Positions 1 through 14,552 of a stretch of DNA of 15,886 nucleotides are shown here, piece after piece; within the stretch, counting starts at the first letter, position 1, and every line of letters starts with the position of its first letter. Location: positions 1 through 15,886 of the forward strand of contig JAPLJE010000453.1 of the NCBI GenBank assembly GCA_026388755.1, written 5' to 3'. The DNA comes from Deltaproteobacteria bacterium (lineage in GTDB: Bacteria > Desulfobacterota > Desulfobacteria > Desulfobacterales > Desulfatirhabdiaceae). A model generated the notes under the pieces. That model ran no database searches. It was not told the origin of the DNA and saw only the letters and a program-made list of their open reading frames with translations. The translations under genes were made by a program, and so were the position numbers.

Positions 1-108
<108 letters not shown>

Positions 109-236
109 TTACCCGATGTCTTCTTAGATATAACTTCGCAGATCCGATGCCCCCATTCGCATCCTTTGAGCAAGACGCAGCATTTCGAAGAATTTTTCTT
201 TCCATCTGGTTTTTGATTCTGATAGTCATCTACTTA

Positions 237-252
237 AGCAATAGATGTGCCA
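237..252 (-). promoter_or_regulatory. Sigma-54 (-24/-12) promoter for the P-II gene
   Basis: On the minus strand the sequence reads TGGCACATCTATTGCT. It has the invariant GG and GC separated by exactly ten bases, matching TGGCAC-N5-TTGCW. It points towards the P-II gene; the start site would be near 226, giving a leader of about 130 bases. Sigma-54 control of P-II genes by NtrC-type activators is well established. No clear NtrC palindrome was found in the AT-rich DNA upstream. Confidence 0.8.
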
Positions 253-491
253 TATATAAATATTATATCAACATACTGTAATTATATTATTATATTATAT
301 ATTGCATTATTCGTATAATACATAATTGTTAAATATTAGTATATATATACATATTTGTATGTTATGGAACGCACTAATATGATGGAGCACAAGAACAGCA
401 GGGGTTTTTCTTGGTATCAAAACAGGAAAGGACAATGGTGTGCAGGTATTTTTAGACAATGGCCGATGCCCGAATTCAGGTGGGACAGTAA
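253..491. other. AT-rich spacer with no recognised gene
   Basis: Bases 253-365 are almost pure A/T with repeated TATATTA runs, which suggests an upstream activating/DNA-bending region or horizontally acquired DNA. From 380 a 45-codon open frame (ATG at 384) can be read, but it resembles nothing I recognise and overlaps the decayed IS remnant. I see no RNA gene here. Confidence 0.5.
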
Positions 492-671
492 GGGGAATCG
501 CTTAACTGGAAATACGCAAATCTGAATTTGAAATACTACGCAAAGGTATTTGGAGATCCAACGCTGACAGCTGCGCTTTTGGACCGCGTTACCCATAAAG
601 CCCATATCATCAGCTGCAATTGGGAGAGTTGTCGGTTTAAGGAATCATTGAGGCAAGCAAAGAAAAAATAA
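492..671 (+). pseudogene. istB: IS21-family IstB remnant (C-terminal about 50 codons)
   Basis: IstB is the AAA+ helper ATPase of IS21-family transposition. The frame ending at TAA 669-671 reads ...NLKYYAKVFGDPTLTAALLDR, then VTHKAHIISCNWESCRFKES. This matches the conserved IstB C-terminus (GxVFGDP..LTAAiLDRL.H.aH.i...gesyRlk). The frame is closed upstream by a TAA at 489-491, so the Walker motifs and the rest of the protein (about 200 residues) are gone, as is any IstA. It lies directly before the tandem repeats typical of an IS21-type end. This is a dead fragment. Confidence 0.78.
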
Positions 672-708
672 AGCCGGTGCCGAGCGCTTATTCCCAAACC
701 CGGCGTGT

Positions 709-766
709 ACCCCCAAATCCAGGGGGTCAAAATTGGGTTATCGGAGGGGGTCAATTTTGGGTTGTC
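709..766 (+). repeat. IS21-type terminal repeats
   Basis: Two 21-base direct repeats, 722-742 and 746-766, both begin GGGGGTCAA and continue with TTGGGTTATC or TTGGGTTGTC; they match at 18 of 21 positions and have a 24-base period. IS21-family ends carry multiple transposase-binding repeats of this kind, and the position just after the istB stop fits the right end. The first repeat also forms a short hairpin with ACCCCC at 709-714. The exact outer boundary and target duplication were not identified. Confidence 0.6.
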
Positions 767-1091
767 TTTTCGATCCGCTTCAATGCTGGATCATATTTTT
801 CAAAATTAGACAGAATGAGTCATTTTGTTCAATGTTATTGTCGGGTCGGTGCTGTTTTATTCCAAAATAAATTGATAATTATTTCAAAAATATCATACAG
901 GATCAATTCAGAAATAATTCATAAGTATTGTTGAGATAACCCGGCTAAAGAATATATGCAAGTATCCTTGAAATTACAAAGTGGGTCACACATACAAAAC
1001 AGCGATGAGCCTAATTTACGCAGACGGGGGCAATCCACATTCCTTCAAAACAGATGTTTTAAGTTGTTCCATCCGCATAAGGGAATGCGTT
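767..1091. other. Non-coding stretch; no supported gene
   Basis: About 325 bases between the IS end and the regulator stop codon. The only structure I can support is the imperfect palindrome at 805-834 listed separately. Short open frames here lack ribosome-binding sites and recognisable protein sequence. Confidence 0.45.
805..834. repeat. Dispersed palindromic repeat, copy 1
   Basis: An imperfect inverted repeat: left arm ATTAGACAGAATG (805-817), three-base centre, right arm CATTTTGTTCAAT (821-833), with 10 of 13 positions complementary. The same 30-base unit recurs at 11353-11382 with 23 of 30 identical bases, where the arms are perfect. Both copies lie in gene-fragment islands, so a small mobile or IS-derived element is likely; a transcription terminator is an alternative. 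Confidence 0.45.
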
Positions 1092-1958
1092 TCACCTATT
1101 TACACGTTTGTCATCCAGTGTCATCTGGCTTATTAACAGATCTGCAATAAAATCAATAATTTTTTCCAGATTATATTTGTTATCCAACGACAGCCTCAAA
1201 GACATGATTTCAATCAAGCCGGTCAAAGCGTAAGCTGACAGGTCCGGATCGATTTTACGGATGATTCCTTCTTTAACAGCGGCTTCTATTTCCCGTATCA
1301 CAGGCTGGGTCAGGCCATGATAGATTTTTTGAATTTTTTCCGCAGGCCATTGTTCCTCGCTTGCCAGCTCGGCCCGCAGCTGGTTTAAAATTTCACTGTA
1401 TTTGGTGTAATTTTTATAAAATACCCTTCCCCTGATTTTCAATCTCTCCTGAAAATCATTTTCCCCCTTAATGGCAATGGCGGCCTCTCCAACGATATAG
1501 CGAAACACATCATCAATCACTTCAATAAACAAATCTCGCTTGTTTTTAAAATACAGATAGAAAGTGCCGGTGGAGATCTTCAGTTGACTGGTAATATCAA
1601 CAATTTTGGTTTGGTGATATCCTTTCTGGCTGAATACCCGTATTGCCTGTTTGATAATTTCCTGACGTTTTAGATCCTTCTCTTTGTTGGTGGTCACGGA
1701 TTTTCTGACATCATATTCTACAGCTCCTTCTGAGGGGTCCACATGAATAGATTCCAGATGCGCTTTCAGAAATGTAACGGGAACGCGGGACCCTTTTTTT
1801 AATTTATTGATTTCCTTTAGCTGCTGAAGATGACTGTCATCATAATAGGCCATTGTCCGTCCGGTTTTATGCGACGGGTGCAGAATTCCATTCCTGAGAT
1901 AAAAATGAATGGTTGTGCGCGGCACTCCTGATCTTTCTTCTAATTCTTTGATCCGCAT
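1092..1958 (-). CDS. MerR-TetR hybrid transcriptional regulator
   Basis: A predicted cytoplasmic DNA-binding regulator of 288 residues with two different helix-turn-helix modules. Residues 1-70 form a MerR-type winged helix (MRIKELEERSGVPRTTIHFY, then LRNGIL...YYDDSHLQQLKEI). Residues 98-148 form a TetR-type HTH (RQEIIKQAIRVFSQKGY, then TKIVDITSQLKISTGTFYLY and FKNKRDLF). A helical TetR-like ligand-binding/dimerisation region fills the C-terminus to 288. The start is supported by AGAGGGG at 1965-1971. It is divergent from the catabolic operon starting at 2292, so it probably senses the pathway substrate or its CoA ester and controls that operon and itself. TetR proteins of such operons are often repressors released by acyl-CoA; MerR proteins often act from the promoter spacer. 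Which mode applies is not shown by the sequence. Confidence 0.88.
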   Translation of the reverse strand: MRIKELEERSGVPRTTIHFYLRNGILHPSHKTGRTMAYYDDSHLQQLKEINKLKKGSRVPVTFLKAHLESIHVDPSEGAVEYDVRKSVTTNKEKDLKRQEIIKQAIRVFSQKGYHQTKIVDITSQLKISTGTFYLYFKNKRDLFIEVIDDVFRYIVGEAAIAIKGENDFQERLKIRGRVFYKNYTKYSEILNQLRAELASEEQWPAEKIQKIYHGLTQPVIREIEAAVKEGIIRKIDPDLSAYALTGLIEIMSLRLSLDNKYNLEKIIDFIADLLISQMTLDDKRVNR

Positions 1959-1986
1959 TGATACCCCTCTTTATATTTCTTAACTA

Positions 1987-2188
1987 TAGATCTAAACTCT
2001 ACAGATTGAAAAACTGTTATTTCATAATCCGCCGCTATCAATGACTGAATCTAATTTCTATTAAATTAAATAATATATTATATCAGTATATTATTAAGGT
2101 TCATCCAATTTCATATTTAAACACTATTTAATATTGACAGTTTGTTTTCTACAGACTAAATGTGAAAACAATTCGTCATATTCTGTAG
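1987..2188. promoter_or_regulatory. Candidate operator array (CTACAGA motif) between regulator and operon
   Basis: The heptamer CTACAGA occurs three times in the divergent region: 1999-2005 and 2149-2155 on the plus strand, and 2182-2188 on the minus strand (as TCTGTAG). A TAGATCTA palindrome lies at 1987-1994, beside the first copy. A 9-bp perfect inverted repeat, AATAATATA (2069-2077) and TATATTATT (2087-2095), lies in the middle. The first two heptamers fall inside the spacers of the predicted regulator and operon promoters, which is where a MerR-type or repressing TetR-type protein would bind. Binding is inference. Confidence 0.45.
2134..2162 (+). promoter_or_regulatory. Predicted sigma-70 promoter of the catabolic operon
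   Basis: A perfect -35 box TTGACA (2134-2139) is followed after 17 bases by TAAATG (2157-2162) as the -10. It is the best sigma-70 match between the two divergent genes and leaves a leader of about 120 bases before the thiolase-like gene. A CTACAGA motif lies in the spacer at 2149-2155. On the opposite strand a weaker TTTTCA-N18-TATAGT pair could serve the regulator gene. Confidence 0.45.
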
Positions 2189-2291
2189 ATTTAACAATAT
2201 CGATCATAACTGTCAAGGCATAAATTAAAGTCGATTTTCATATATGACTGAATCCGAAGATGAATACTGCAGATAAGTTAAGGAGGCACAA

Positions 2292-3473
2292 ATGGGAAAG
2301 CAAAAGCTTGCGATCATTGGGGTTGGAGAGGTTCCGACAGGGACATATCCTGACCGATCACAGTGGGACATCATTTATGAAACCAGCATACAGGCTGTCA
2401 GGGATGCCGGAATCCATAAAAACGATGTGGAAGGCGTCATTACCGTCGCTCCCCAGGCTCAGGAGCAGCTCACGGCTGAAATATCCTTTGGGAAAATACC
2501 CGAAGAGCTCGGTTTAAAGGGATGCAGGGATGTCTGCATCTGTAATGCCGGCGGAGCTTCCACATCCAACTGCTTGCGGCTGGCGGAACAGTTGATTGAA
2601 AGTAATCAGGCAAAGATTGTCCTGATTCCGCATGTTACGGTTCACTCCACCATTCCACTGCTTGACCTGATTAATTTTTTCGCCAAAGCAGGCATCGACT
2701 TGCAGTGGGAATATCCCTATGGCACGACTTACAACGGAGTCATCGCCATGATGACCCGGCGATACATGCATGAATCCGGAACAACTGAAGAAGAAATGGC
2801 ATCCGTCGTAGTTTCCTTGAGAAAATGGGCGGCACTGGACCCCAATTCCATTTTTTACGGCAAAGAAGTCCCGACCATCGATAAGGTGCTGTCGTCGAGC
2901 ATGGTATCGTCACCCCTGCATAAACGCGAATGTAATGTTCTGGCGGATGGCGGTGCCGCACTGGTGGTGACTTCTGCGGAAAACGCAAAACAAATGGGAT
3001 GCCCGGCAGCGGTCAAACTCGGTGAGAGTTCCCGATATTTCAGCGCATTTACCACCACCCGAAGCACGGAACTGGTGAAAGACGGTTTTCGTGGTGCTAC
3101 TAAAGAAGCACTGGCAGGTGCCGGAATAACAAAAGAAGATATTGATATCTGGAATATGTACCTGGCGTATCCAGTAGGCCATCCCATGTTTATGGAAACC
3201 GTCGGCCTGTGCGGACCAGGCCAGGCGGGAAAGATGTTTATGGAAGGTCATACATGGCCCGGCGGAAAACTGCCGTGGGCAACTATTGGCGACGCCATCG
3301 GGCGGGGGCATACCGGTTCCGGTGTCAGCATGGCAACCTATGCGGAAACTGCCCGCCAGCTCATGGACAAGGCAGGTGCAAAGCAGGTGATGGATGTCGA
3401 TTATATATTTCAAAATACATCCGGCGGATCAGGCATGAACTTCATCGCAACCGTGTGGGGGAGGAACATCTAA
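2292..3473 (+). CDS. Thiolase-superfamily protein lacking the canonical cysteines; possible acyl-CoA retro-aldolase
   Basis: A 393-residue thiolase-fold protein of the SCP-x/lipid-transfer type that partners with DUF35 proteins. Visible landmarks are the N-terminal IIGVGEVP strand, the nucleophile-elbow region CNAGGAST (84-91), ADGGAALVVTSAENA (218-232), the His motif GRGHTGSG (337-344) and the C-terminal TSGGSG (376-381). Gap-free alignment of GGASTSNCLRLAEQLI to the classical xCASG...QxI motif puts Gly88 where the catalytic Cys belongs. The second catalytic Cys (CxGGGxG) is replaced by Thr376. His340 is kept. This points away from ordinary thiolysis and towards a retro-aldol role as in Ltp2. 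Cys84, four residues upstream, is the caveat. The start is set by AAGGAGG at 2279-2285. It overlaps the DUF35 gene by one base (TAATG), so the two are translationally coupled and probably form a complex. Confidence 0.85.
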   Translation: MGKQKLAIIGVGEVPTGTYPDRSQWDIIYETSIQAVRDAGIHKNDVEGVITVAPQAQEQLTAEISFGKIPEELGLKGCRDVCICNAGGASTSNCLRLAEQLIESNQAKIVLIPHVTVHSTIPLLDLINFFAKAGIDLQWEYPYGTTYNGVIAMMTRRYMHESGTTEEEMASVVVSLRKWAALDPNSIFYGKEVPTIDKVLSSSMVSSPLHKRECNVLADGGAALVVTSAENAKQMGCPAAVKLGESSRYFSAFTTTRSTELVKDGFRGATKEALAGAGITKEDIDIWNMYLAYPVGHPMFMETVGLCGPGQAGKMFMEGHTWPGGKLPWATIGDAIGRGHTGSGVSMATYAETARQLMDKAGAKQVMDVDYIFQNTSGGSGMNFIATVWGRNI

Positions 3474-4012
3474 TGGAAACTCATAAACCGTTTCCAGTCA
3501 TGCAACCCTGGACAAAGGAATTCTGGAAAGCGACAAAACAGGGCAAACTTCTGGTTCAGCACTGCAATGACTGCCAAATTAATATTTTTTTCCCGAAAAA
3601 AGTCTGCCCGGAATGCTGGTCTGAAAATTTAAGTTGGATCGAATCGAGCGGCAAGGCAAAAGTTTATACCTTTACAACCATGCTGGATATGGTGGAGCCC
3701 AAATTCATGGGTGACCTGCCTTATGTGATTGCCATGGTGGACCTCCTGGAAGAAGGCATCCGCATGACCACCCGAATTGTCAATTGCAAGCCCGAAAACG
3801 TGGCCATCGGCATGCATGTTGAAGTTGTTTTTCAAGACGTATCGGAAGACTGCGCGTTGCCGATGTTTCAGCCGGTTGAAGAATCCTTACGAATCAAAAC
3901 AACCGATCAAGAAGAAACTGAGAAAACCGTTTCTGAAACCGAAATGGGCTTAAGACTCGATGATTACCAAACGATTTTATATGAAATCGGCGGTAAAAAT
4001 AACGCGGTCTGA
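3473..4012 (+). CDS. DUF35 zinc-ribbon/OB-fold protein, with an in-frame tail of crotonase sequence
   Basis: DUF35 proteins bind thiolase-fold enzymes and help deliver or position acyl-CoA substrates. The product from the ATG at 3473 has 179 residues. Residues 1-25 form the N-terminal helix; a rubredoxin-like zinc ribbon has C31, C34, C45 and C48 (C-x2-C-x10-C-x2-C); an OB-fold (GKAKVYTFTTM onward) ends near residue 135. A 25-residue polar linker follows. Residues from about 160 (DDYQTILYEIGGKNNAV) are not DUF35 but the first strand of an enoyl-CoA hydratase. After the TGA at 4010-4012 the same frame goes straight on with YITLNRPDKYNAI, the classical crotonase start. The likely ancestral product is a DUF35-crotonase fusion; the stop leaves an intact DUF35 domain. 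An upstream in-frame start at 3209 would lie inside the previous gene and is rejected. Confidence 0.85.
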   Translation: METHKPFPVMQPWTKEFWKATKQGKLLVQHCNDCQINIFFPKKVCPECWSENLSWIESSGKAKVYTFTTMLDMVEPKFMGDLPYVIAMVDLLEEGIRMTTRIVNCKPENVAIGMHVEVVFQDVSEDCALPMFQPVEESLRIKTTDQEETEKTVSETEMGLRLDDYQTILYEIGGKNNAV

Positions 4013-4736
4013 TATATCACCTTAAATCGGCCGGATAAATACAATGCAATCAATCGTCGGATGGCAACAGAACTCATCGACGCCTTCCGCCGGGTAAGAG
4101 ACATCCCTACTGTGGGCGTAGTTGTATTGACTGGCGCCGGCAAAGCATTCTGCACCGGTGGCGACCTTGAAATTTTTCCCTCTCTTGCCGAACATCAAAA
4201 CAGCCTCAACTGGCTTTCTCATGAAGGTTTAGATGTTCAGCGGGTCATCACAAGCTGTGAAAAAGTCGTCATCTGCAAAATAAACGGGCATTGCCTGGCG
4301 GGCGGGCTTGAAGTTGCCCTTGCTTGTGATCTCCTGTATGCCAAAGCATCAGCAAAAATGGGTGCCAAGCATGCCCATATTTCGTGCCCGGGAAATCATC
4401 TTCAGCGGCCGAAAAGATTACACAGCCAAAGAGATGTATGACATGGGGCTGCTGACACGGATATTTGCCGATGATGAATTTGAGGCCAGATTTGAGGAGG
4501 TAGTGAATAATATCGGCTCTAAAAAACCTATTGCGCTTCGGATGGGCAAAGAAATCATGGCCCGTTCAGTCGATGGATGCGATATGGAGACCGCCCTTGC
4601 AGTGGAGCGAAACGGCATTCAATGGCTGACATATTCACCTGATATCCAAGCGGTGATGGATCAATTCAGGGCCCAGCCCGACCAACTGACCCAGCAGCAG
4701 AAACAGCAAAATATTCGATCCGATATGAAGATATAA
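3944..4736 (+). pseudogene. Enoyl-CoA hydratase/isomerase (crotonase) broken by a stop and a deletion-frameshift
   Basis: Crotonases hydrate 2-enoyl-CoA or rearrange acyl-CoA. The first part, in the DUF35 frame, runs from about 3944: DDYQTILYEI..., TGA at 4010-4012, then YITLNRPDKYNAI, the oxyanion-hole strand GKAFCTGGDL and GHCLAGGLEVALACDLLYA, ending at KMGAKHAHI near 4381. The sequence then resumes in another frame with RAREIIFSGRKDYTAKEMYD and GLLTRIFADDEFEAR, to a stop at 4734-4736. About 20 residues that should lie between them (the xxPGxGGxQRLPRxxG segment at the active site) are absent. A deletion of about 56-59 bases would account for both the gap and the frame change. The Glu in GGLEVALACD is kept; the second catalytic Glu position reads His within GAKHAHI, as I recall for some subfamilies. 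As sequenced, no working hydratase can be made. No good ribosome-binding site precedes 3944 or 4061, which supports an ancestral fusion with DUF35. Confidence 0.82.
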
Positions 4737-4750
4737 TAAGGAGAGTTATC

Positions 4751-5914
4751 ATGGATTTTGGTTTCACTAAAGAACAGGAAATGATCCGCAAAGAAATGGC
4801 CCGGTTCTGCAAAAAAGAATTGAACAAGGACTATGTCGCCTGGATGGACGAGAACGTTGATTTCCCTCCTCCGGAATTATGGCAGAAATTTGTAGACATC
4901 GGTATGTTTAAATACAATATCCCTAAAGAATATGGTGGTGAGGGACTTAGCATGGTGGACGGCATGATTGCCTATGAAGAGATCTGCAAGGCCTCCATGT
5001 CGGTTGCTCTGGCAGTGGGGACCACCATCGGTTTTGGCACCCGTTTTATTGCGGAAATGGGCACTGCCGCCCAGAAAGAAAAATACCTTCCTCTCATTGC
5101 TGAAGGCAAGTTGAAAATGTGCATGGCCTTAACCGAGCCGGCCGGCGGCACCGACATTCTCGGGGCAATCTCAACTTTTGCGGAGGAAAAGGAAGGCCGA
5201 TGGGTGATTAACGGAGAAAAAGTGTTTATCACTGGTGCCCATGCCTCAGATTTTATGATTACGGTTTGCAGGACCGAGCTCAATACCAAACCCAGTCAAT
5301 CTCTTTCCGTGTTTTTGATTCCGTCGGATGCCAGGGGCATCACCATCACCCGTATCCCCAAAATCAGTTGTCATCACTGTGATTCCGTAGGCATCACGTT
5401 TTCCAATGTGGAAATTCCAGCAGAAAGCATTCTTGGGACCCGCGGCGGCGGATGGTATGAAATGCTGGCTATTCTGAATCCCGAACGTATCGGCTGCGCC
5501 ATGATGGGGGTAGGCCTCATGGCCGCCGCTTACGAGGATGCCTTTCAATATGCCCAGAAACGCCATGCTTTCGGCGGTCCGATCAGCCGCTTCCAGATAT
5601 TGCAGCATTATCTGGCGGACATGTATATCAACCTGGAAAATACCCGCAACCTGACCTACAAGTCGGCCTGGTTATGTGACCAGGGCAAGCCCTATCATCT
5701 GGAAGCCACTATGGCCAAGCTAGTGGCATCGGAAGGCGCCCTGCACGCCGGTCGATTCGGAGCTGAGATCATGGGGGGATACGGTATCTGTAATGAATAT
5801 CCCATGCAAAGGTATTTGCGGGATGCCTATCAGCTTCAGTTTTCGCCGATTTCAAACGAGATGAGCAAAAACATGCTGATGCAGTTTCAAGGACTACCCA
5901 AGTCGTGGGCCTGA
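4751..5914 (+). CDS. Acyl-CoA dehydrogenase with relocated catalytic base
   Basis: FAD-dependent alpha,beta-desaturation of an acyl-CoA, with electrons passing to ETF. The 387-residue length is typical. Landmarks are the N-terminal helical domain (1-120), the FAD/substrate motif MALTEPAGGTD (125-135), the beta domain with WVINGEKVFITGA, the signature QKRHAFGGPISRFQ (269-282) and GGYGICNEYPMQRYLRDA (342-359). The usual C-terminal catalytic Glu (YEGT) is absent: after RDAYQLQF the sequence is SPISNEM, with Pro366 at the Glu position. Glu245 in LNPERIG occupies the alternative helix-G position used by isovaleryl- and long-chain acyl-CoA dehydrogenases, so activity is plausible. GGAGAG at 4740-4745 precedes the ATG by five bases. 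It follows the broken crotonase by 14 bases. Confidence 0.93.
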   Translation: MDFGFTKEQEMIRKEMARFCKKELNKDYVAWMDENVDFPPPELWQKFVDIGMFKYNIPKEYGGEGLSMVDGMIAYEEICKASMSVALAVGTTIGFGTRFIAEMGTAAQKEKYLPLIAEGKLKMCMALTEPAGGTDILGAISTFAEEKEGRWVINGEKVFITGAHASDFMITVCRTELNTKPSQSLSVFLIPSDARGITITRIPKISCHHCDSVGITFSNVEIPAESILGTRGGGWYEMLAILNPERIGCAMMGVGLMAAAYEDAFQYAQKRHAFGGPISRFQILQHYLADMYINLENTRNLTYKSAWLCDQGKPYHLEATMAKLVASEGALHAGRFGAEIMGGYGICNEYPMQRYLRDAYQLQFSPISNEMSKNMLMQFQGLPKSWA

Positions 5915-5963
5915 AAATAATAACGAATAAGTGGATGCTCCCACATTCAACCAGGAGGATAAC

Positions 5964-7515
5964 ATGTACACCTTAGGTGACATCCCTCGAAAAAACGCGC
6001 TGCATTATCCGGATAAAGAAGCCATCGTCTTTGAAGAAACCCGGCTGACCTATGAAAAACTGAACCAACGCATCAATCGCCTCGCAAACGCGCTCACAAA
6101 AATGGGATTTAACCCCGGAGACCGGGTGACGGTATTTTCGGAAAACACCCACAAATACCTTGAAGTCTATTTTGCCGCCGCCAAACTGGGAATGAGCGTG
6201 ACGCCCATCAACTTCAGGCTGTCGGATGATGAAATCATCCACATTGTTAGTGACAGTGAGGCTTCCTGTTTTTTTGCCGGGGATGGGTATGAAGCACGCG
6301 CGGGAAAGATGCGCGAACGCCTTCAGGCAATCAATGCCTGGGTTGCATTTGATAATAACACACCGGGATTTATTGTTTATGAAGACATGCTAAACGATGC
6401 CTCTGAAAAAGAACCGGATGTGACCGTCGATGAAGACGATCTGGCGGTTCTGATGTATACCGGCGGGACCACCGGTCTTCCCAAAGGCGTCATGCTGTCC
6501 CATCGCAATATCATGGCCGGTGTGATCAGTGCCAACCTGATGTCCAATATTACCAGTGACGATACGACCTGCTTTGTGCTGCCGCTTTTTCATGTGTCCT
6601 TCTGGCCGGCCTTTTGTCTGCTTCTGGCCGGCGGAAAAGTGGCCATCAACCGGAAATCCGACCTGAACGAAATCCTGCGAATTATCCAGGATGAACGCTG
6701 TACCCATATGAACGCTGTGCCCACGGTTTACGGCTGGCTGCTCCAGTTCGGAAATGTGGACGCTTACAATCTCACAAGCCTCAAATTACTCTCTTATGCC
6801 GGTAGTCCTTTTCCGCTGGAAATTTTAAAACAGTGCATTGAAAAATTCGGCCCTATTTTCGCCCAGGGTTATGGCGCGACCGAAACCGCTGGGGGTGCCA
6901 TCAGTCTTTTGCGTAAAGAGGATCACATTTTGTCGGGTACCAAATCCAAACTGCTTGCAAGCGCCGGCAAGGCATCCCTGTGTTCTGAAATCCGCATCAT
7001 GGATGAAAACGGGCTTGCGTTGCCAATCCATGAAACTGGAGAGATCGCCGTCAAAGGAAAGCATGTCATGATGGGGTATTGGAAAAACCCGGAACTGACT
7101 GAAAAAGCATTGCGGGGCGGCTGGTACTATGCCGGTGATATGGGGTACATGGATGAAGATGGGTATCTTTATCTTGTTGACCGCAAGGCCGACATGATTG
7201 TCACCGGTGGCGAAAATATATATCCCAAAGAGGTTGAAGATGTTCTGTATGAGCATCCAGCCGTTTTCATGGCAGCGGTGGTGTCGGCACCAGATAAAAA
7301 ATGGGGGGAGCGTGTCCAGGCGGTGGTGGTGCTAAAACCGGACCAGTTGGTGACAGAAGAGGAACTCATCGCTTTTTACAAAAAAAATGGGCGGATACAA
7401 ATGCCCCAACGCCATTGAATTCTGGGAGTCGATCCCGACCACTCCCGTCGGAAAAATTCTCCGCAAGGATGTAAAGAAAAAGTTCTGGGAAGGTCATGAG
7501 CGTTTAATTGGCTGA
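5964..7515 (+). pseudogene. Acyl-CoA ligase (AMP-forming), frameshifted in an A8 tract near the C-terminus
   Basis: Adenylate-forming enzymes activate a carboxylic acid with ATP and CoA. The start is set by AGGAGG (5953-5958) before the ATG at 5964; an upstream ATG at 5931 lacks such a site. Residues 1-410 hold the N-domain: P-loop YTGGTTGLPKG (165-175), A5 motif QGYGATET (301-308), and A7/A8 motifs GWYYAGD and YLYLVDRKADMIVTGGEN. The frame ends at a TGA at 7416-7418 (484 aa) after GRIQMPQRH. Removing one A from the eight-base tract at 7380-7387 restores MGGYKCPNAIEFWESIPTTP, VGKILRKDVKKKFW and a stop at 7513-7515 (516 aa). The lost tail holds the A10 motif PxxPVGKILRK with the lysine needed for adenylation (Lys497). 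As read, the enzyme should be inactive for adenylation; a sequencing error or slippage on the A tract would rescue it. Confidence 0.88.
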
Positions 7516-7583
7516 TTACGATACATCGTGTTTACCATAAACAAAATTATATCGGACAATCCTTAAACTATTAAGGAGGTATT

Positions 7584-8591
7584 ATGAGTGAATTTGTAAA
7601 AGACGAATACTTTAAAATTGACCCTGAACCACATCTTGTAGGGAATATGGAATTGGTGAACCATTTCCCTGGGGTTCAGATGTGGTGGCGGGCCATCGCA
7701 GCTATCCAACGTCCATTAATAACCGGGACTCCTCCTGAACTATTTGTGGGCATGGAACCCTGGGAAATGGAGAAATCAACTGATCCCAACAATCTTTTAA
7801 AGGCGATGGACAAATATGGCGTAGATATCGCATGCCTCCTGCCGGAATCCATGATGGATACTACCGGATATACCAGCCGTTGGTGCACCAATGGCGAAAT
7901 GGCCAAAATTGTGGAATCGAATCCGAATCGCTTCATGTACCAGCCCAATGTCTCCCCGATTAAACACAAAGGGGTGAAAAATACCATTTGGGAGCTGGAA
8001 TACTGGGTAAAGGAAAAAGGGGCAAAGATATTCAAATTTTATCCTCCGGAAGACACTTATATCAATGACGCGGATCTGTGGCCCTTTTACCAGAAAGCCC
8101 AGGAACTCGGTATTGTGTTAGACATCCATACTGGTTTCTGCTGGGTGCCTCCGGGGAAAAGCAAATATGCCCTTCCGATTTATATTGATGATGTGGCGCG
8201 GGATTTTCCGGATTTAAAGATTAATGCCTTCCACATGGGATATCCTTATTGCGATGATTTGAACATGATCGCTATGGGGCATCCCAATGTCTATGTTTGT
8301 CTGAGTCTGCTCGTCCCCTGGGCTGCAAGCGCGCCAAGAAAATTCGCCAAAATCATCGGTGAAGCCCTCCGCTGGGTGGGACCGGACAAGATTATCTGGG
8401 GAACCGATTACGCCGGTTATGGCGCACAGATCCGGGGAGCAGTGATGGGTTTACGAGAATTTCAAATTCCAGAAGATATGCAAAAAAATTATGGTTATCC
8501 GGCCATAACAGATGAAGACAGAAAAAAAATATTTGGTGGAAATCTAGCGCGACTGCTCAATGTAAATACGACCAAACGAAGAATTAAATAA
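7584..8591 (+). CDS. Amidohydrolase-2 family metal-dependent hydrolase or decarboxylase
   Basis: A 335-residue TIM-barrel protein of the amidohydrolase-2/ACMSD-like family, whose members decarboxylate aromatic or unsaturated acids or hydrolyse C-C/C-N bonds with Zn or Mn. The metal ligands are visible: Glu15 and His17 in DPEPHLV (the E-x-H form seen in gamma-resorcylate decarboxylase rather than H-x-H), His182 in DIHTGF, His217 in AFHMGYP and Asp275 in IWGTDYAG. The C-terminus KKIFGGNLARLLNV is the usual family ending. No signal peptide is present, so it is cytoplasmic. A near-perfect AAGGAGGT lies at 7572-7579, five bases before the ATG. It begins 69 bases after the ligase's restored stop and 22 bases before the next gene. 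A ring hydrolysis or decarboxylation step is inferred; the substrate is unknown. Confidence 0.85.
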   Translation: MSEFVKDEYFKIDPEPHLVGNMELVNHFPGVQMWWRAIAAIQRPLITGTPPELFVGMEPWEMEKSTDPNNLLKAMDKYGVDIACLLPESMMDTTGYTSRWCTNGEMAKIVESNPNRFMYQPNVSPIKHKGVKNTIWELEYWVKEKGAKIFKFYPPEDTYINDADLWPFYQKAQELGIVLDIHTGFCWVPPGKSKYALPIYIDDVARDFPDLKINAFHMGYPYCDDLNMIAMGHPNVYVCLSLLVPWAASAPRKFAKIIGEALRWVGPDKIIWGTDYAGYGAQIRGAVMGLREFQIPEDMQKNYGYPAITDEDRKKIFGGNLARLLNVNTTKRRIK

Positions 8592-8612
8592 ATTATTTTC
8601 AAGGAGAACATT

Positions 8613-9965
8613 TTGACAAAAAAATTCGAACATCTTTCAAAACCGATTAAAATCGGCCCCTTTGAACTTAAGAATCGAATGGTATTAGCTCCCATGAATG
8701 AAACAATGTCCGGGGTTAACGGCGAAGCCACTGAGCAAATGCTCTCTTATTTCGCAGCCCGCGCCAAAGGCGGAGCAGCTTTAGTGAGTACCGGCGCGAT
8801 TATGGGAACCCGCCTGGGCTCGGAATTTGTCTGGGGGCGAAACCTTTATTGTTTCCATCCCGGACACCTCCAGGGCCTGGGGATGCTGACGGACAGGATT
8901 CATTATTTCGGTTCCAGAGCTGCAGCTCAGATGACCATCGGATTTGGCAGACAGGGGCATTCCTATGATCACACCCAAATAGCTCCGGCCGCTACTGGCG
9001 GGCTTCCGTATGAAATTACATTGGATAAATCTCCTAAAGGTGTTGTTGATGCATACCGGTTTTCGGAATATTCGAGATATTTTATGACAGGACAGATGAC
9101 CCGGGAAATGCCTATTGATGAAATCCATAAGGAGCAAAAAGAATTTGCGGAAAGCTGCCAACTCGCTGTGATTGCAGGGTTTGATGTGATCGAGATTCAT
9201 GCGCCTCACGGATATCTGGAGCATCAGTTTCTTTCACCCCTGTCCAATAAACGCACAGATATGTATGGTGGCGAATGGCGTAATCGGAAGCGGTTTTTAA
9301 ATGAGGTCATGGAGCAGATTCGATATGCATGTCCTGGTGTCGCCGTCGGAGTAAGGATCAGCGCAGAAGAGCATATGGAAGGTGGATTGACCGAAGATGA
9401 AATGATCGATGTGGCAAAAGACTTAGAAGCCCGGGGGGCTGACTATATCAGTCTGTCAGACGGAGCTGGCTATGAGGAAGGTGGGCATTTGATTACTGAC
9501 ATGGATCGTTCAAAACATATTCCTGAACATGGTGGAGCCTTTAAAAAAGCGTTAAAGATTCCAGTTATTGTTTCGTCCCAGCATGACCCTATCAAAATTG
9601 ATGCAAACATTGCCGCCGGCAAATATGATATCCAGGCCATGGGTCGGCAACTCTTTATTGACCCAGAATATCCAAATAAAGTGATTGAAGGCCGAGAGAA
9701 GGGCATTATCCGGTGCAAGCGCTGCAACACATGTTTGATGCGTTGCCTGGCCGGTCTAGTGCCTGCGTGCCCAGACAACCCGAACCTAGGGCGGGAATAT
9801 GTAATGGATGAATATAAAATCGGACCCTGGCAGCCCCATGAATCGATTCTTCCAGAAGGGTTGATGCGGGCCAATATGCCGGCGTTAAACCGACCGTGGT
9901 GGAAGCGAGAGCTTGATGAGATTGAAGAAAACTGGCGGCCACTGCAGGGAAGAACCAGCAGGTAA
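8613..9965 (+). CDS. Old Yellow Enzyme family FMN/4Fe-4S oxidoreductase without NAD(P)H domain
   Basis: An FMN-dependent ene-reductase-type protein of 450 residues. It starts with TTG, supported by AAGGAGA at 8601-8607. The TIM barrel is clear: IGPFELKNRMVLAPMN (14-29), the active-site pair in HAPHGYLEHQFLSPLSNKR (196-214), VGVRIS, and DIQAMGRQLFIDPEYPNK (339-356). A cysteine cluster follows (C368, C371, C374 and C386, i.e. C-x2-C-x2-C-x11-C, plus C378), which matches the 4Fe-4S site of trimethylamine dehydrogenase and 2,4-dienoyl-CoA reductase. Those enzymes go on for about 250 residues with a flavin/NAD(P)H domain; here the protein ends 64 residues after the cluster. Electrons must come from or go to a separate partner. 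Likely role: reduction or oxidation of an enone or dienoyl-CoA intermediate. Confidence 0.88.
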   Translation: MTKKFEHLSKPIKIGPFELKNRMVLAPMNETMSGVNGEATEQMLSYFAARAKGGAALVSTGAIMGTRLGSEFVWGRNLYCFHPGHLQGLGMLTDRIHYFGSRAAAQMTIGFGRQGHSYDHTQIAPAATGGLPYEITLDKSPKGVVDAYRFSEYSRYFMTGQMTREMPIDEIHKEQKEFAESCQLAVIAGFDVIEIHAPHGYLEHQFLSPLSNKRTDMYGGEWRNRKRFLNEVMEQIRYACPGVAVGVRISAEEHMEGGLTEDEMIDVAKDLEARGADYISLSDGAGYEEGGHLITDMDRSKHIPEHGGAFKKALKIPVIVSSQHDPIKIDANIAAGKYDIQAMGRQLFIDPEYPNKVIEGREKGIIRCKRCNTCLMRCLAGLVPACPDNPNLGREYVMDEYKIGPWQPHESILPEGLMRANMPALNRPWWKRELDEIEENWRPLQGRTSR

Positions 9966-9970
9966 CATCT

Positions 9971-10813
9971 ATGAAAAATTCCGATCAATTACTTTCCGGA
10001 AAAACAGCTTTGGTTACAGGTGCATCCCGGGGGCTTGGGCGAGCTATTGCCTTAGCCCTCGCCAAAGCTGGAGCTAATGTCGCGGTTACTGATCTTCTGA
10101 TTGAAAACGAAGCGGTTGATAAAGAAAAATTGGCTGAATATGGACTGCTCGCCTCTTATTTCAGTGAAACAGAAAATGTTCGGACGCTTTCAACCGCCGA
10201 CGAAATAGAGAAATTCGGGTCCAGGAGCTTAGGTATAAAAATGGATGTTACCAATTCGGATGACATTCAAAAAGCTATCGCTCAAACGACGGACAAACTC
10301 GGAAGCATCGACATACTCATCAACAACGCCGGCGTGATGGACAATATGGCAATGCTTGAATATCAAACTGAGAAGATGTGGGAGCGGGATCTCAACGTGA
10401 ACTTAACCGGGGCCTTCAACTGCATCCGGGCTGTCTGGCAGCAAATGAAACAAAAAAAGTGGGGGCGTATAATCAATATATCTTCTTTTGTGGGTCTAAG
10501 CGGCGCATTTGCCCAACCAGGATACGGAGCATCCAAAGCCGGCCTGATCGGACTTACGAGATCTGTGGCATTGGAGGGTGCCAAAAATGGCATAACCGTC
10601 AATGCTGTTTTGCCAGGATTTATTGAAACAGAAGCTGTTAAGCTGCATGATCCTAAAATGATTGATCGGATTAGGGCGCGAACGCCGATGAAACGTATGG
10701 GCACACCTGAAGAAATTACACCATTAGTCGTTTTTCTGGCAAGTGATGGTGCAAGTTTCATTACAGGAGCTGCCATCCCGGTAACTGGAGGTGCGGATCT
10801 GTTTGTTTTTTAA
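9971..10813 (+). CDS. Short-chain dehydrogenase/reductase (SDR)
   Basis: An NAD(P)-dependent alcohol/ketone oxidoreductase of the classical SDR type with 280 residues. The Rossmann nucleotide motif is TGASRGLG (16-23), the structural motif NNAG lies at 118-121, and the catalytic set is Ser171/Ser172, Tyr185 and Lys189 (YGASK). The ending ASFITGAAIPVTGGAD is typical of FabG-like proteins. Residues 44-85 carry an insertion of about 15-20 residues between beta-2 and the MDVTN strand compared with FabG, a region near the cofactor's adenine ribose. It starts six bases after the preceding stop with only a weak AGG site, so translational coupling is likely. It is the last intact gene of the operon. 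A 3-hydroxyacyl-CoA or ring-alcohol substrate is inferred. Confidence 0.9.
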   Translation: MKNSDQLLSGKTALVTGASRGLGRAIALALAKAGANVAVTDLLIENEAVDKEKLAEYGLLASYFSETENVRTLSTADEIEKFGSRSLGIKMDVTNSDDIQKAIAQTTDKLGSIDILINNAGVMDNMAMLEYQTEKMWERDLNVNLTGAFNCIRAVWQQMKQKKWGRIINISSFVGLSGAFAQPGYGASKAGLIGLTRSVALEGAKNGITVNAVLPGFIETEAVKLHDPKMIDRIRARTPMKRMGTPEEITPLVVFLASDGASFITGAAIPVTGGADLFVF

Positions 10814-10911
10814 GTCAGGATAGGTGATTAGCAAGATTGTTTATAATACCAATAGATTTCAATTTGTTGCTCTTAACTGATCTATCATTAATAAGTGCAG
10901 AAGAAGATATC

Positions 10912-11088
10912 ATGGCAAACAGCAATGAAATGATGGCATTGTCCAAATCATTTTCCCGCCTGGAAGAAGAAAGGGTTTATCAGATCATTGACAATTATCT
11001 GGAAAAGAACGGCAATCCTTTAATGATTGTAAATGCTTTATCAAACGGCATGCAGGAAGTTGGACAGTTATTCAAGAATGATGAGTAA
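10912..11088 (+). pseudogene. Corrinoid-protein cap-domain fragment
   Basis: Methyltransferase corrinoid proteins (MtbC/MtaC type) have an N-terminal four-helix cap followed by a B12-binding domain with DxHxxG. The 58 codons from the ATG at 10912 match only the cap: VYQIIDNYLEKNGNPLMIVN and ALSNGMQEVGQLFKNDE. The TAA falls exactly where the family continues with the conserved (E)YFLxEL segment. No B12-binding sequence follows; instead the remnant of a receiver domain appears. A longer frame starting at 10837 adds a hydrophobic, unrelated N-terminus and is less likely. A TATAAT at 10842-10847 could be a -10 box but has no good -35. Regarded as a truncated, non-functional gene. Confidence 0.65.
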
Positions 11089-11096
11089 GCACTTAA

Positions 11097-11186
11097 GGAT
11101 TTCTCATCCAGCCCGTGACAACAGGTGATCTCGCCACGATGCTTAGAAACATGCTGGAAGAGTCAAAAAGCTCGACTTTTGAATAG
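11097..11186 (+). pseudogene. Remnant of a response-regulator receiver domain C-terminus
   Basis: The frame gga-ttt-ctc from 11097 to the TAG at 11184-11186 reads GFLIQPVTTGDLATMLRNML and EESKSSTFE. This resembles the end of a receiver domain (the conserved K-P of beta-5/alpha-5, here Q-P, then an amphipathic helix), as at the end of hybrid histidine kinases. Only about 29 codons remain, so it is debris, probably joined by deletion to the corrinoid-protein fragment just upstream. The conserved Lys is Gln here. Confidence 0.45.
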
Positions 11187-11348
11187 TTATCCTATTCTTG
11201 AGTTCTGAGGAGGTCCAATTTTATTAACATTACATGATGAATAAACTAATGTCTAAATAAAGATTAAAGACTCGAAAACCTCCAAAAACCATACAATCTG
11301 TCAGTCCAGCGGACAGTTAGGGGATTCCGCTGACGTTATCGCAAGACA

Positions 11349-11385
11349 AAACATTAGACAAAATAATCCATTCTGTCTAATGTTT
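11349..11385. repeat. Perfect 12-bp inverted repeat (dispersed repeat, copy 2)
   Basis: AAACATTAGACA (11349-11360) and TGTCTAATGTTT (11374-11385) are exact reverse complements around a 13-base loop. The A-rich left and T-rich right flanks could let it act as a weak two-way terminator. Its inner 30 bases match the imperfect palindrome at 805-834 at 23 positions, so a shared mobile-element origin is also possible. The DNA from 11187 to 11348 holds nothing else I recognise apart from a short AGCGGA/TCCGCT inverted repeat near 11310-11335. Confidence 0.55.
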
Positions 11386-11405
11386 CTTGAGGTAGGCATT
11401 GTGTT

Positions 11406-11720
11406 TCACCCATGTGTATGGGAATTGTCGGTTTGCACAACTGCCAGATCAGGACGCACCAGCGCGGGCTGATAACTGTGCAGAAGGTCGGCGGTTTTCT
11501 GTGCGTGTGATACTGCGGTAAAGATCACCCACTTATCCTCTTTAAAAATCTTCCGCCATAAAGCGACAAAGACCGAAGGATCTCTATTGTATCGGGCGTT
11601 ATGCCAATATCGGCGCACAAAAAGGCCTCGCCGATTTCTGCGACAAGTTCCTCCATTGCATAACCTTCATCACCACATTTCATCTACTTTCCGGCTTCCC
11701 AGATGCCGCGGAAGCTCTTT
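11406..11720 (-). pseudogene. ArdC-like antirestriction/zincin protein remnant
   Basis: ArdC-type proteins of plasmids and conjugative elements bind ssDNA through an N-terminal DUF1738 domain and carry a C-terminal zincin-like peptidase domain. On the minus strand, pieces of that C-terminal domain appear in shifted frames. One piece is KELPRHLGSRKVDEMW (from about 11720), perhaps the decayed HExxH helix. Another is GDEGYAMEELVAEIGEAFLC ADIGITP (about 11661-11581). The last is LWRKIFKEDKWVIFTAVSHA QKTADLLHSY, in the open frame ending at 11406. The second and third pieces match the conserved YAxEELVAElgaAFLc and LKeDkraIftAAshAqkAaDyL segments. At least two frame changes and the missing N-terminus show that the gene is dead. 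Confidence 0.65.
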
Positions 11721-11765
11721 CGGGCAATGACAGATTCAGGTACTAAAGCAAGTTATAGATATTTA

Positions 11766-11795
11766 TTGCATGTTATTCGTATAAGGCAGTATAAA
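11766..11795 (+). promoter_or_regulatory. Possible sigma-70 promoter for the AAA-ATPase remnant
   Basis: TTGCAT (11766-11771), an 18-base spacer and TATAAA (11790-11795) lie 33 bases upstream of the ATPase ATG, with GGAGGG at 11818-11823 as the ribosome-binding site. A similar string, ATTGCAT..TATTCGTATAA, also occurs at about 301-319 in the first AT-rich island. Confidence 0.4.
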
Positions 11796-11828
11796 TGAAA
11801 ATAAATTACTATAAATCGGAGGGACGTC

Positions 11829-12435
11829 ATGGACAAGATAAAGAATCCATTCTAGCCGGGCGCAGGATCTCCACCGCCGGAACTGGCTGGGCGCGACGGT
11901 GTTTTGGAACAGGCCCGCGTTCTCCTCGGTCGTGTGCGGCATAAACGCGCTGAGAAAAGTATTCTCCTGACGGGTCTGCGTGGTGTTGGCAAGACCGTTC
12001 TGCTCAACGAGATCGAACGGTCTGCTCAAGCTGAAGAATACCGCACCATCTTTATCGAAGCATATGAGGATAAACATTTGGCGACGCTTTTAGCTCCCCA
12101 CCTGCGGCGCCTGCTCTATGACCTGGACCGGGTTAAAGGCGCGGGGGATAAAGTTCGGCCTCACGCCTCGGGAAAAAGATTACCTCCGCGCCATGGCGCA
12201 TCTTGGAACCGGTCCATATAGAACGGGCGATATTGCCGCAGCCCTTAGTGAAAAGATTACCGCCCTTGGCCCGATGCGTTCCGGTCTCATCAAGAAGGGG
12301 ATGATTTATAGTCCTGCACATGGTGACATGGCATTTACAGTCCCGCTTTTTGATGAGTTCATGCGCCGTGCCATACCCGAGTTCCATCCGAAGGCCAGGA
12401 AGACCCCTTCTGCAAAAGAGAAGCACAAACCATGA
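11829..12435 (+). pseudogene. AAA-family ATPase with nonsense codon and large internal deletion
   Basis: The family consists of about 380-400-residue STAND/ORC-like ATPases with a C-terminal winged helix, common in genomic islands; their role is not well defined. From the ATG at 11829 the product reads MDKIKNPF, TAG at 11853-11855, then PGAGSPPPELAGRDGVLEQA and the Walker A GLRGVGKTVL, up to LLYDLDRVKGAGDKVR near 12155. The sequence then continues in another frame with the C-terminal domain FGLTPREKDYLRAMAHLGTG, the HTH-like GDIAAALSEKITALGPMRSG and the ending FTVPLFDEFMRRAIPEF. Walker B, the sensor motifs and most of the lid (roughly 190-200 codons) are missing. The good ribosome-binding site shows that this was once a real gene start. 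Stop codon, deletion and frameshift make it non-functional. Confidence 0.75.
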
Positions 12436-12541
12436 CCATCATCAGACAACGCCGCTTTGTCGCGCTGATGGATCAATTCATGTCGTGGCATCCCATTTCA
12501 TCGGAGATTCAGCTTCGCAGCAGGACAAAAGCGGGCCGTCA

Positions 12542-12763
12542 TTACCAGAGGATCTTCACGCCATATTCGGAGAAGCTGCTGTCCGCCGATACAATCGTCA
12601 GTTTATCCGAAATTGCCTGAGCAATCAGCAGACGATCAAACGGATCCCGGTGGTGAAACGGCAGCTTCTCGATTTTTGCCGCATGCCGTAATTCGATGTT
12701 CAACAGCAATAAACCGTTGGCCGCCAGTTGCTCCGACACGAAACGATCAGTGAATGTTTTCAC
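12542..12763 (-). pseudogene. VapC-type PIN-domain toxin, C-terminal fragment
   Basis: PIN-domain toxins are Mg-dependent RNases of type II toxin-antitoxin systems, usually about 125-130 residues. The 73-residue minus-strand frame matches the C-terminal half: LPFHHRDPFDRLLIAQA, then IVSADSSFSEYGVKILW and a stop. Acidic residues Asp40, Asp43 and Asp61 fit the third and fourth metal-ligand positions. The N-terminal half with the first catalytic Asp (LLLDTHxxLW) is absent: the frame is open upstream only to a TGA some 25 codons before, with no toxin-like sequence. The GTG at 12763 is unlikely to be a genuine start. No clear antitoxin gene remains. It lies against the ATPase fragment in the same decayed island. 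Confidence 0.7.
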
Positions 12764-12934
12764 TTCTTGGCGGCATGATGTGCGGAATATTCAATGAGCC
12801 CCGCGAGGTGACGGATAGCAGGCTACATTTCATACCAGGCGACGAAACAACTCCCCTGAAAATCATCATTCGCCTTGATCGTTCCGGATATACATGCTAA
12901 TCGAATATGTTATCTTTTATTCGGAGGAGAGCCA

Positions 12935-13474
12935 ATGTTAAAAAACACAACAGACAGTTACGGTTTGATTGCCCGTCTTTTTCACTGGATTATTTTCGTG
13001 ATGGTCATCAGCATTATCATCGGGGGAAATATCGCCGCAGATATGCCAAGCGGACCCGACAAATCGCAACTGATCGGCATGCATAAGTCGCTTGGTTTTA
13101 CGATTCTGGTCCTGGTGGTGCTGCGTCTGCTATGGCGATTTACAAATCCGCGCCCGCGCGATCTGGGAACCAGCAGGATTGAGAACAAACTGGGGCACGC
13201 CATGCACATCTTCCTGTACATCCTGCTGCTGTCACAACCCACTATCGGGATACTGATGTCGCAGTCCTTCGGTCATCCGGTTTACCCCTTTGATTTGTTT
13301 AAAGTGCCGACTTTTGTTAATGACAATATCCGGCTGGGGAAAATGCTGCTTGAAATCCACGAGACACTCTGGGTTGTGCTGGCAATATCCGTGGGGTTTC
13401 ATGCCGCCGCCGCGCTGAAACATCATTTTATTGAAAAAAACCGGACGCTCATGCGCATGATTCTGGGCAAATGA
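12935..13474 (+). CDS. Cytochrome b561 family protein
   Basis: A di-heme b-type cytochrome of the inner membrane (bacterial CybB family) that shuttles electrons between quinol and periplasmic or membrane partners. From the ATG at 12935, preceded by GGAGGAG, it has 179 residues; an upstream ATG at 12875 lacks a ribosome-binding site. There are four hydrophobic segments: about 15-33 (LFHWIIFVMVISIIIGG), 50-70 (HKSLGFTILVLVVLRLLW), 90-110 (HIFLYILLLSQPTIGIL) and 145-165 (ETLWVVLAISVGFHAAAA). Candidate heme ligands are His17, His50, the His of LEIHETLW and the His of VGFHAAAALKHHF. This is the first gene of an apparent three-gene set with the 58-aa and MBL proteins. Superoxide:quinone oxidoreductase activity is known for E. 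coli CybB; the role here is open. Confidence 0.88.
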   Translation: MLKNTTDSYGLIARLFHWIIFVMVISIIIGGNIAADMPSGPDKSQLIGMHKSLGFTILVLVVLRLLWRFTNPRPRDLGTSRIENKLGHAMHIFLYILLLSQPTIGILMSQSFGHPVYPFDLFKVPTFVNDNIRLGKMLLEIHETLWVVLAISVGFHAAAALKHHFIEKNRTLMRMILGK

Positions 13475-13520
13475 AGAAGTCAGAAAACAGAAGTTCGAAT
13501 AATTACGCTGCAGGACAGCA

Positions 13521-13697
13521 ATGACTTATAATTTTGATCCTGACAGATGGTATGATATTGAGATTGGCCACCTTGAGTTGCTTCGTCAATCTGGAAAAAT
13601 CACAGAGCCGGAATTCATGCAATGCCTGGAAGGACTCGATAGCCGGCATAAAGATATGTGGAACCGGCTGGATGGAACCTATCGGCTTCCACATTGA
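13521..13697 (+). CDS. Conserved small hypothetical protein (58 aa)
   Basis: A short acidic, soluble protein beginning MTYNFDPDRWYDIEIGHLEL and ending WNRLDGTYRLPH. It has no signal peptide or membrane segment. Two predicted helices, around residues 14-25 and 31-50, contain regularly spaced charged and hydrophobic residues (GKITEPEFMQCLEGLDSRHK) and could form a helical hairpin or coiled coil. I do not know a function; the pattern 'FDPDRWYD...L...G.I...EF...L..LD.R...MW.RLDGTY.LP' looks familiar as a small conserved hypothetical. A modest AGGA site lies six bases before the ATG. It sits between and in line with cytochrome b561 and the MBL-fold gene, 46 and 37 bases from them, so co-transcription is likely. 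Confidence 0.6.
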   Translation: MTYNFDPDRWYDIEIGHLELLRQSGKITEPEFMQCLEGLDSRHKDMWNRLDGTYRLPH

Positions 13698-13734
13698 TAT
13701 ACGGTAATAACGAAACCATTATTCAGGGAGGGAA

Positions 13735-14496: not shown

Positions 14497-14519
14497 TCGA
14501 AATCACGCCTCGTATCAAC

Positions 14520-14552
14520 GGATCCGGCGAGACTCTCCGCCTCACCGGATCC
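14520..14552. terminator. Hairpin between convergent genes, probable bidirectional terminator
   Basis: GGATCCGG (14520-14527) and CCGGATCC (14545-14552) form a perfect 8-bp stem. An inner GGC-GAG/CTC-C-GCC pairing lengthens it. It begins 24 bases after the MBL stop and overlaps the last codons of the opposing Hsp70-like gene. A TTTTT run follows about nine bases later on the plus strand; the minus strand has no T-run directly after it. Confidence 0.5.

Follow-up and report, generated by a model that had tools for sequence, protein, structure and literature searches.

The DNA analyzed here, the window, spans positions 1 to 15,886 of a contig 19,487 bases long (C171, GenBank JAPLJE010000453.1) from a Desulfatirhabdiaceae genome that is assembled in 839 contigs and about 93% complete. 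It carries a gene for a thiolase-fold protein, a DUF35 gene that shares one base with it (TAATG, position 3473), and a crotonase reading frame that continues the DUF35 frame beyond a TGA codon. To our knowledge, coupling of a hydratase and an aldolase through DUF35 has been described solely for the breakdown of steroid side chains, where the hydratases are of the MaoC type. A preliminary description of this stretch had suggested the same idea built with a crotonase. We propose, at a probability of roughly 0.6, that the thiolase-fold/DUF35 pair is a retro-aldolase for a beta-hydroxyacyl-CoA and that the crotonase would hydrate the enoyl-CoA, so that together they form a hydratase-aldolase module.

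The active site of the thiolase-fold protein

We compared the thiolase-fold protein with three sets of homologues: the query with 120 listed of 1052 matches (n = 121, close homologues), 56 proteins from wider loci, and 120 listed of 592 matches to a sister protein (L005, G003:C39; set members P0241-P0360). The sister family is 42% identical to the window protein and has the same Gly/Tyr/His set; the L005 sister gene also adjoins DUF35 and crotonase. The loci were gathered with two search patterns. The 56-row alignment omitted L029, L059, L060, L062, L063, and L065, whose matched stretch was at most 300 residues, as well as the near-copies L001 and L068; L067 (32%), another protein, was dropped.

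The thiolase superfamily fold was matched over the whole chain, and sequence profile matches in the PDB included the steroid side-chain aldolases Sal and Ltp2. Gly88, which the preliminary description had placed at the catalytic-cysteine site, aligned to Gly89 of Sal and to the catalytic cysteine of 6esq and 7yvy in a profile search, and both MAFFT L-INS-i and hhalign agreed. This column is glycine in 120 of the 121 close homologues (the other has Cys), in 56/56 locus proteins, and in 120/120 listed sister proteins. A single-sequence phmmer alignment to 7yvy instead placed Cys84, with a gap, on the cysteine. The Cys84 column is Cys in all 121 close homologues, in 33 of the 56 locus proteins, and in none of the 120 listed sister proteins. 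Because Cys84 is not conserved across the family, and given the profile alignments, we ruled it out as the nucleophile, a judgment made on aligned sequences rather than superposed coordinates.

Neither Tyr290 nor His340 varies in any of the three sets (121/121, 56/56, and 120/120), and Gly88, Tyr290, Tyr293, His340, and Asn148 are all invariant in the 120 listed sister and 56 locus proteins. The motif YLAY replaces the HDxF/NEAF motif of thiolases, with Tyr290 at the position of the HDxF histidine, as in Sal and Ltp2. In the alignment, Tyr290 corresponds to Tyr302 of Sal and Tyr294 of Ltp2, and His340 to Gln352 of Sal and Tyr344 of Ltp2. The available part of PMC12329534 names Tyr302 and Cys304 of Sal, and Tyr294 and Tyr344 of Ltp2, as catalytic; it has the hydroxyl contacted by Gly89 of Sal, and states that the glycine of Sal at the nucleophile-cysteine site of SCP-2 thiolases makes thiolysis impossible. 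From our alignment, this glycine would be Gly89. The Tyr/His pair is best explained as a third catalytic set among DUF35-linked thiolase-fold aldolases, in which we infer that His340 acts as the acid.

The window protein retains the GHP-type histidine of catalytic Cys-His thiolases and lacks their nucleophile cysteine and HDxF/NEAF motif. It scored 109 bits against an NCBIfam BbsB cut-off of 750, and the BbsA score was 37 against a cut-off of 250 bits. Thr376 does stand at the second cysteine site, as had been described, but it has little diagnostic value. Both 7yvy and BbsB keep the nucleophile cysteine and yet have Ala at the place of Ala292 and no Cys at the place of Thr376; we therefore set Thr376 and Ala292 aside as evidence against a thiolase. 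The Ala292 column is Ala in 121/121 and 56/56 proteins, and Ala (46/120) or Ser (74/120) in the sister family; the Thr376 column is Cys in 96 of the 120 listed sister proteins. In the tree, which also omitted L031, L053, and L003, the family lay on the side of Sal, Ltp2, and 4u4e.

The DUF35 domain and its hydratase partners

The DUF35 frame of the window runs, as had been noted, through an in-frame TGA into a crotonase. Unbroken fusions, for which the preliminary description had advised searching, exist in relatives. Among 120 listed of 5147 matches to the fusion of Desulfosarcina widdelii (L008), zinc ribbon, OB fold, and ECH domains are present in 119, as are all four zinc cysteines; the 120th has no DUF35 domain. 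Both catalytic glutamates of the crotonase are kept in 120/120 aligned proteins. The DUF35-crotonase fusion is real. The best PDB matches of the L008 DUF35 were the partners of the two steroid aldolases, Shy (E 5e-20) and ChsH2 (3e-19); it matched the archaeal AACT complex (6e-12) and 6htj, PhlB, and BbsA (6e-12 and weaker) less well. The predicted structure of the intact L008 protein was of low confidence (pLDDT 68.9, pTM 0.53): DUF35 was mostly confident, residues 143-158 fell under pLDDT 50, and the crotonase was partly modeled. The 50 matches listed in a fold search with this model were all crotonase-fold, so the model contributes little, and the absence of DUF35 from that list is no evidence against DUF35.

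We then surveyed 62 loci (L005 and L006-L066). DUF35 is fused to a crotonase in 12 and followed by a separate crotonase gene in 21; such a gene is also seen in L029 and L030. In 4 loci the crotonase is upstream and more divergent (35-37% identity), a MaoC-type gene follows DUF35 in 18, and the remaining 5 are cut off or unclear. The earlier view of the fusion as the design of the operon is borne out in these 12 relatives but is not the rule, as DUF35 and crotonase are separate neighboring genes in many others. On the tree, the fusion label requires at least three changes. A single origin was rejected, with a p-AU of 0.003 (approximately unbiased test) for a single clade; membership of the fusion group was fixed from gene layout ahead of tree building, and the test was run after the tree had been seen. 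The history is either one of repeated fusion or one of repeated splitting.

The 18 MaoC-type loci belong to marine Gamma- and Alphaproteobacteria and their relatives, and they are every locus of that group whose contig extends beyond DUF35 (18/18); the L053 contig ends at DUF35. The first MaoC-type protein matched Pfam FAS1_DH_region above cut-off in 3/3 proteins scanned. A second MaoC-type protein is encoded in 17 loci (the L046 sequence stops short of it), and all 17 keep the D-x4-H spacing, which we take to mark the catalytic pair of MaoC hydratases. One first protein matched NCBIfam HadA and two second proteins matched HadB, all below cut-off. In the tree, the 17 rows of MaoC-type loci group in a single clade (100/100). 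Hydratases that are exchangeable beside one thiolase-fold/DUF35 pair would be best explained by a hydratase-aldolase module. In L054:6311-8951 (HTCC2080), two genes upstream of the thiolase-like gene resemble PaaA and PaaC of phenylacetyl-CoA epoxidase, below cut-off, a hint that the marine branch may act on an aryl-CoA.

The surrounding operon and its carriers

Table 1. Positions of the module and neighboring features in the window
Feature	Position	Strand	Basis or remark
Regulator with N-terminal MerR, then TetR domain	1092..1958	-	divergent, upstream of the thiolase-like gene
Thiolase-fold protein, 393 aa, predicted retro-aldolase	2292..3473	+	alignments, conservation, fold
Codon of Cys84	2541-2543		
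Codon of Gly88	2553-2555		
Codon of Tyr290	3159-3161		
Codon of Ala292	3165-3167		
Codon of His340	3309-3311		
DUF35 (zinc ribbon C-x2-C-x10-C-x2-C, OB fold) with C-terminal linker	3473..4012	+	stop is the in-frame TGA 4010-4012
Crotonase remnant, N-terminal part	4013..4380	+	DUF35 frame; first catalytic Glu region kept
Crotonase break	4380..4390	+	short deletion and frameshift; block with second catalytic Glu gone
Crotonase remnant, C-terminal part	4389..4736	+	different frame
Acyl-CoA dehydrogenase (ACDH)	4751..5914	+	would produce enoyl-CoA
AMP-dependent acyl-CoA ligase	5931..7418	+	frame broken 7381-7388; C-terminus in other frame to ~7512
Amidohydrolase (Amidohydro_2)	7584..8591	+	conserved operon member
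OYE-type flavin reductase	8613..9965	+	best PDB match 6qkg, 2-naphthoyl-CoA reductase
Short-chain dehydrogenase (SDR)	9971..10813	+	variable operon member, 8/25 loci

In 25 crotonase-type loci whose sequence extends 8 kb or more downstream and 1 kb or more upstream, we counted genes anywhere in the locus that passed identity thresholds (at least 30% for the regulator). ACDH was found in 24 loci, the amidohydrolase in 23, the flavin reductase in 21, the ligase in 20, the regulator in 19, and SDR in 8. With 8 of the 25 long loci, SDR is not a fixed part of the operon; other dehydrogenases could serve where it is absent. None of these six genes passed the thresholds in 12 MaoC-type loci, and a distant ACDH (28-30%) lies just upstream in three of the MaoC-type loci (L043, L044, and L048). 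The OYE-type reductase (450 aa) lacks the C-terminal part of 2-naphthoyl-CoA reductase, since the match covers residues 11-416 of 714. PDB and family searches with the amidohydrolase yielded no function. The ligase frameshift near 7385 sits in a run of A. Farther downstream, positions 11904-12435 hold a 105-aa open frame matching AAA_16 and a second short frame with no Pfam match, possibly the remnants of a broken ATPase gene.

Carriers include Thermodesulfobacteriota (among them D. widdelii and Desulfatibacillum alkenivorans), Chloroflexota, records titled Deltaproteobacteria, SAR324, Nitrospirae, and others, as well as the marine Proteobacteria with MaoC; two Nocardia carry separate crotonase genes. 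The anaerobic setting that had been proposed thus suits the sulfate reducers but fails for Nocardia and the marine MaoC branch. We searched eight genomes of the window's own family, including its own, and found matches at E 1e-60 only in its own and one other (42% identity), so the operon is patchy in this family. In L026:13614-16592 (Desulfomonilaceae), the TRAP transporter parts DctP and DctM lie downstream of SDR, fitting uptake of an organic acid. Many members of the thiolase-fold family are labeled "acetyl-CoA C-acetyltransferase" in one source. A literature search on DUF35-crotonase pairing, related operons, or the module returned nothing describing the window operon among the top matches listed. 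The available part of PMC8084838 places DUF35, acetyl-CoA acetyltransferase, and enoyl-CoA hydratase genes, numbered consecutively (04021-04023), in an acetone cluster of Desulfotomaculum.

Proposed reaction, rival explanations, and known relatives

We reasoned that the ligase and ACDH of the operon would make an enoyl-CoA, to which the crotonase, joined to DUF35 in the fusion subgroup, would add water. The thiolase-fold protein, held by DUF35, would then cut a C-C bond of the resulting beta-hydroxyacyl-CoA by retro-aldol cleavage: Tyr290 would take the proton of the beta-hydroxyl, which would rest on the Gly88 backbone, and His340 would protonate the enolate of the acyl-CoA. This would release acetyl-CoA (or propionyl-CoA) together with an aldehyde or ketone, on which, or on a ring, the flavin reductase and amidohydrolase may speculatively act. 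According to the available part of PMC11321319, Sal binds Shy via DUF35, and the hydratase of ChsH1-ChsH2-Ltp2 needs aldolytic cleavage to overcome an unfavorable equilibrium. Tethering of hydratase and aldolase would be useful here because removal of the hydrated product would overcome that equilibrium. Gene content, the fusion, residue conservation, the fold, and the exchange of hydratase types are observed here; a complex, its chemistry, and the residue roles are predictions.

The system has the parts expected of such a module, namely a thiolase-fold protein free of the nucleophile cysteine and with a catalytic-type tyrosine beside DUF35, and a hydratase fused to or beside DUF35. The original proposal of a crotonase in place of MaoC receives strong, though indirect, support from the aldolase-type active site, the Shy/ChsH2-like DUF35, the unbroken fusions, and the MaoC-type genes that stand where the crotonase would be in a related clade. 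Of the two findings that the preliminary description said would overturn it, Cys84 at the nucleophile position and relatives with DUF35 and crotonase always in separate genes, neither was borne out by sequence alignment. Several observations weigh the other way. His340, within GHTG, is equivalent to the histidine of the thiolase GHP motif and alone does not favor an aldolase; neither known aldolase has His at this position; and its invariance in the 56 loci is partly built in, as one of the two search patterns, GRGHTGSGV, contains it. The fold resembles thiolases (6esq and 7yvy) as much as aldolases, and the reference rows in the tree are long branches. The second MaoC-type protein matched MaoC_dehydratas below cut-off in 3 of 5 proteins scanned and not at all in the other 2. 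The window operon has an SDR, which would suit ordinary beta-oxidation, and its hydratase is broken in this contig.

An ordinary beta-oxidation set, with ligase, ACDH, crotonase, SDR, a thiolase using an odd nucleophile (Cys84 or Cys94), and DUF35 as in BbsAB, would account for every gene type present in the window, for the one pairwise alignment that sets Cys84 on the thiolase cysteine, and for the match of His340 to the GHP histidine. We consider it unlikely given the scatter of Cys84 across the family, the presence of Ile, Leu, or Val at the Cys94 position in 120/120 listed sister proteins, the variable SDR, and the tyrosine that replaces the HDxF histidine in all three homologue sets. We also doubt, to a similar degree, that the protein catalyzes another Cys-free reaction on CoA esters, be it an aldol addition in the synthetic direction or, for example, the decarboxylation or hydrolysis of a beta-ketoacyl-CoA in which His340 serves as the base. 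A Cys-free relative, TbSLP, decarboxylates malonyl-CoA very slowly (available part of PMC12329534), and the conserved amidohydrolase and flavin reductase, with unassigned roles, adjoin; however, the constant association with a hydratase, in three arrangements and two folds, best fits a beta-hydroxyacyl-CoA substrate, and with its ligase and ACDH the operon looks degradative. That the protein is a non-catalytic CoA-binding scaffold placing the crotonase would agree with the loss of the classical nucleophile, but the five invariant residues exceed what a scaffold needs, and we regard this as very improbable.

In the window contig as assembled, the hydratase half is inactivated. Beyond the TGA, a second break, absent from the preliminary description, follows after ~120 crotonase residues. 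Compared with P0134, one of the listed fusion homologues, intact at 439 residues and with 97%, 99%, and 97% identity to the three window pieces, a block of ~21 residues that includes the second catalytic Glu region is absent, a net loss of ~56 bases. P0001 is identical to the window thiolase-like protein at 390/393 residues. P0134 and P0001 each come from a 4,455-base contig, probably the same one, of a near-identical strain. Because this strain carries an intact fusion, the lesions either arose recently or stem from errors in assembly, and the module in the window is a decaying copy or a misassembled one. A search of the same genome, which is ~93% complete, turned up no second, intact copy. 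Reading the TGA as selenocysteine would yield the fusion as one protein: the TGA column is Cys in 120/120 listed relatives, and the genome encodes SelA along with a tRNA-Sec match that scores above cut-off. Yet the RNA after the TGA forms no stem-loop and folds worse than most shuffles (z +1.33; 190/200 at least as stable), and a second lesion lies within the crotonase and a third in the ligase, which leaves this reading hardly credible.

Returning to the proposed module, we see about even odds for a broader picture: a large family of DUF35-linked Tyr/His thiolase-fold aldolases whose hydratase half is swapped between crotonase and MaoC folds, with fusions that arose or were lost more than once, and whose crotonase version shortens acyl-CoAs in sulfate reducers and Chloroflexota without a hydroxyacyl-CoA dehydrogenase or thiolase step. 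If the module is real, the coupling principle would extend beyond steroid breakdown, to a hydratase with an unrelated fold, to anaerobic lineages, and probably to other substrates; a third residue set would be able to perform the cleavage, and the acetyltransferase labels on many family members would be corrected.

BbsAB, the benzoylsuccinyl-CoA thiolase (7pxp), shares the thiolase fold and a DUF35 partner and also occurs in anaerobes; BbsB keeps the nucleophile cysteine and HDAF, its DUF35 chain has no hydratase, and our NCBIfam scores are far below cut-off. In 6esq, a thiolase fold is likewise bound to a second enzyme via DUF35; it retains the catalytic cysteine and HDCF, and its partner, HMG-CoA synthase there and PhlA in another case (available part of PMC12329534), is not a hydratase.

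Sal-Shy of Comamonas (steroid C5 side-chain aldolase with DUF35-MaoC hydratase, 9myr) shares the thiolase fold, the glycine at the nucleophile place, the catalytic tyrosine at the HDxF histidine, and a DUF35 partner with a hydratase on the same chain. Sal is marked by YDCY with Tyr302 and the acid Cys304, whereas the window protein has Tyr290 with Ala292 at the Cys304 place, and His340 instead of Gln352. The Shy hydratase is MaoC rather than crotonase, and its zinc site is Cys3His1 according to the available part of PMC12329534, compared with C4 by sequence here. Ltp2-ChsH1-ChsH2 (steroid C3 side-chain aldolase with MaoC hydratase, 6ok1) shares the fold, the glycine, the tyrosine, the C4 zinc ribbon, and the location of the second catalytic residue, and the marine relatives, like ChsH1/ChsH2, carry a pair of MaoC-type genes. 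Ltp2 has YDHF and a Tyr/Tyr pair, whereas the window protein has YLAY, with Ala in place of His296, and a Tyr/His pair with His340 at the Tyr344 place; DUF35 follows MaoC in ChsH2 and precedes the crotonase here. Overall, Sal-Shy and Ltp2-ChsH1-ChsH2 are the closest systems, and by its aligned catalytic residues the window system is a variant of them and not a member of either.

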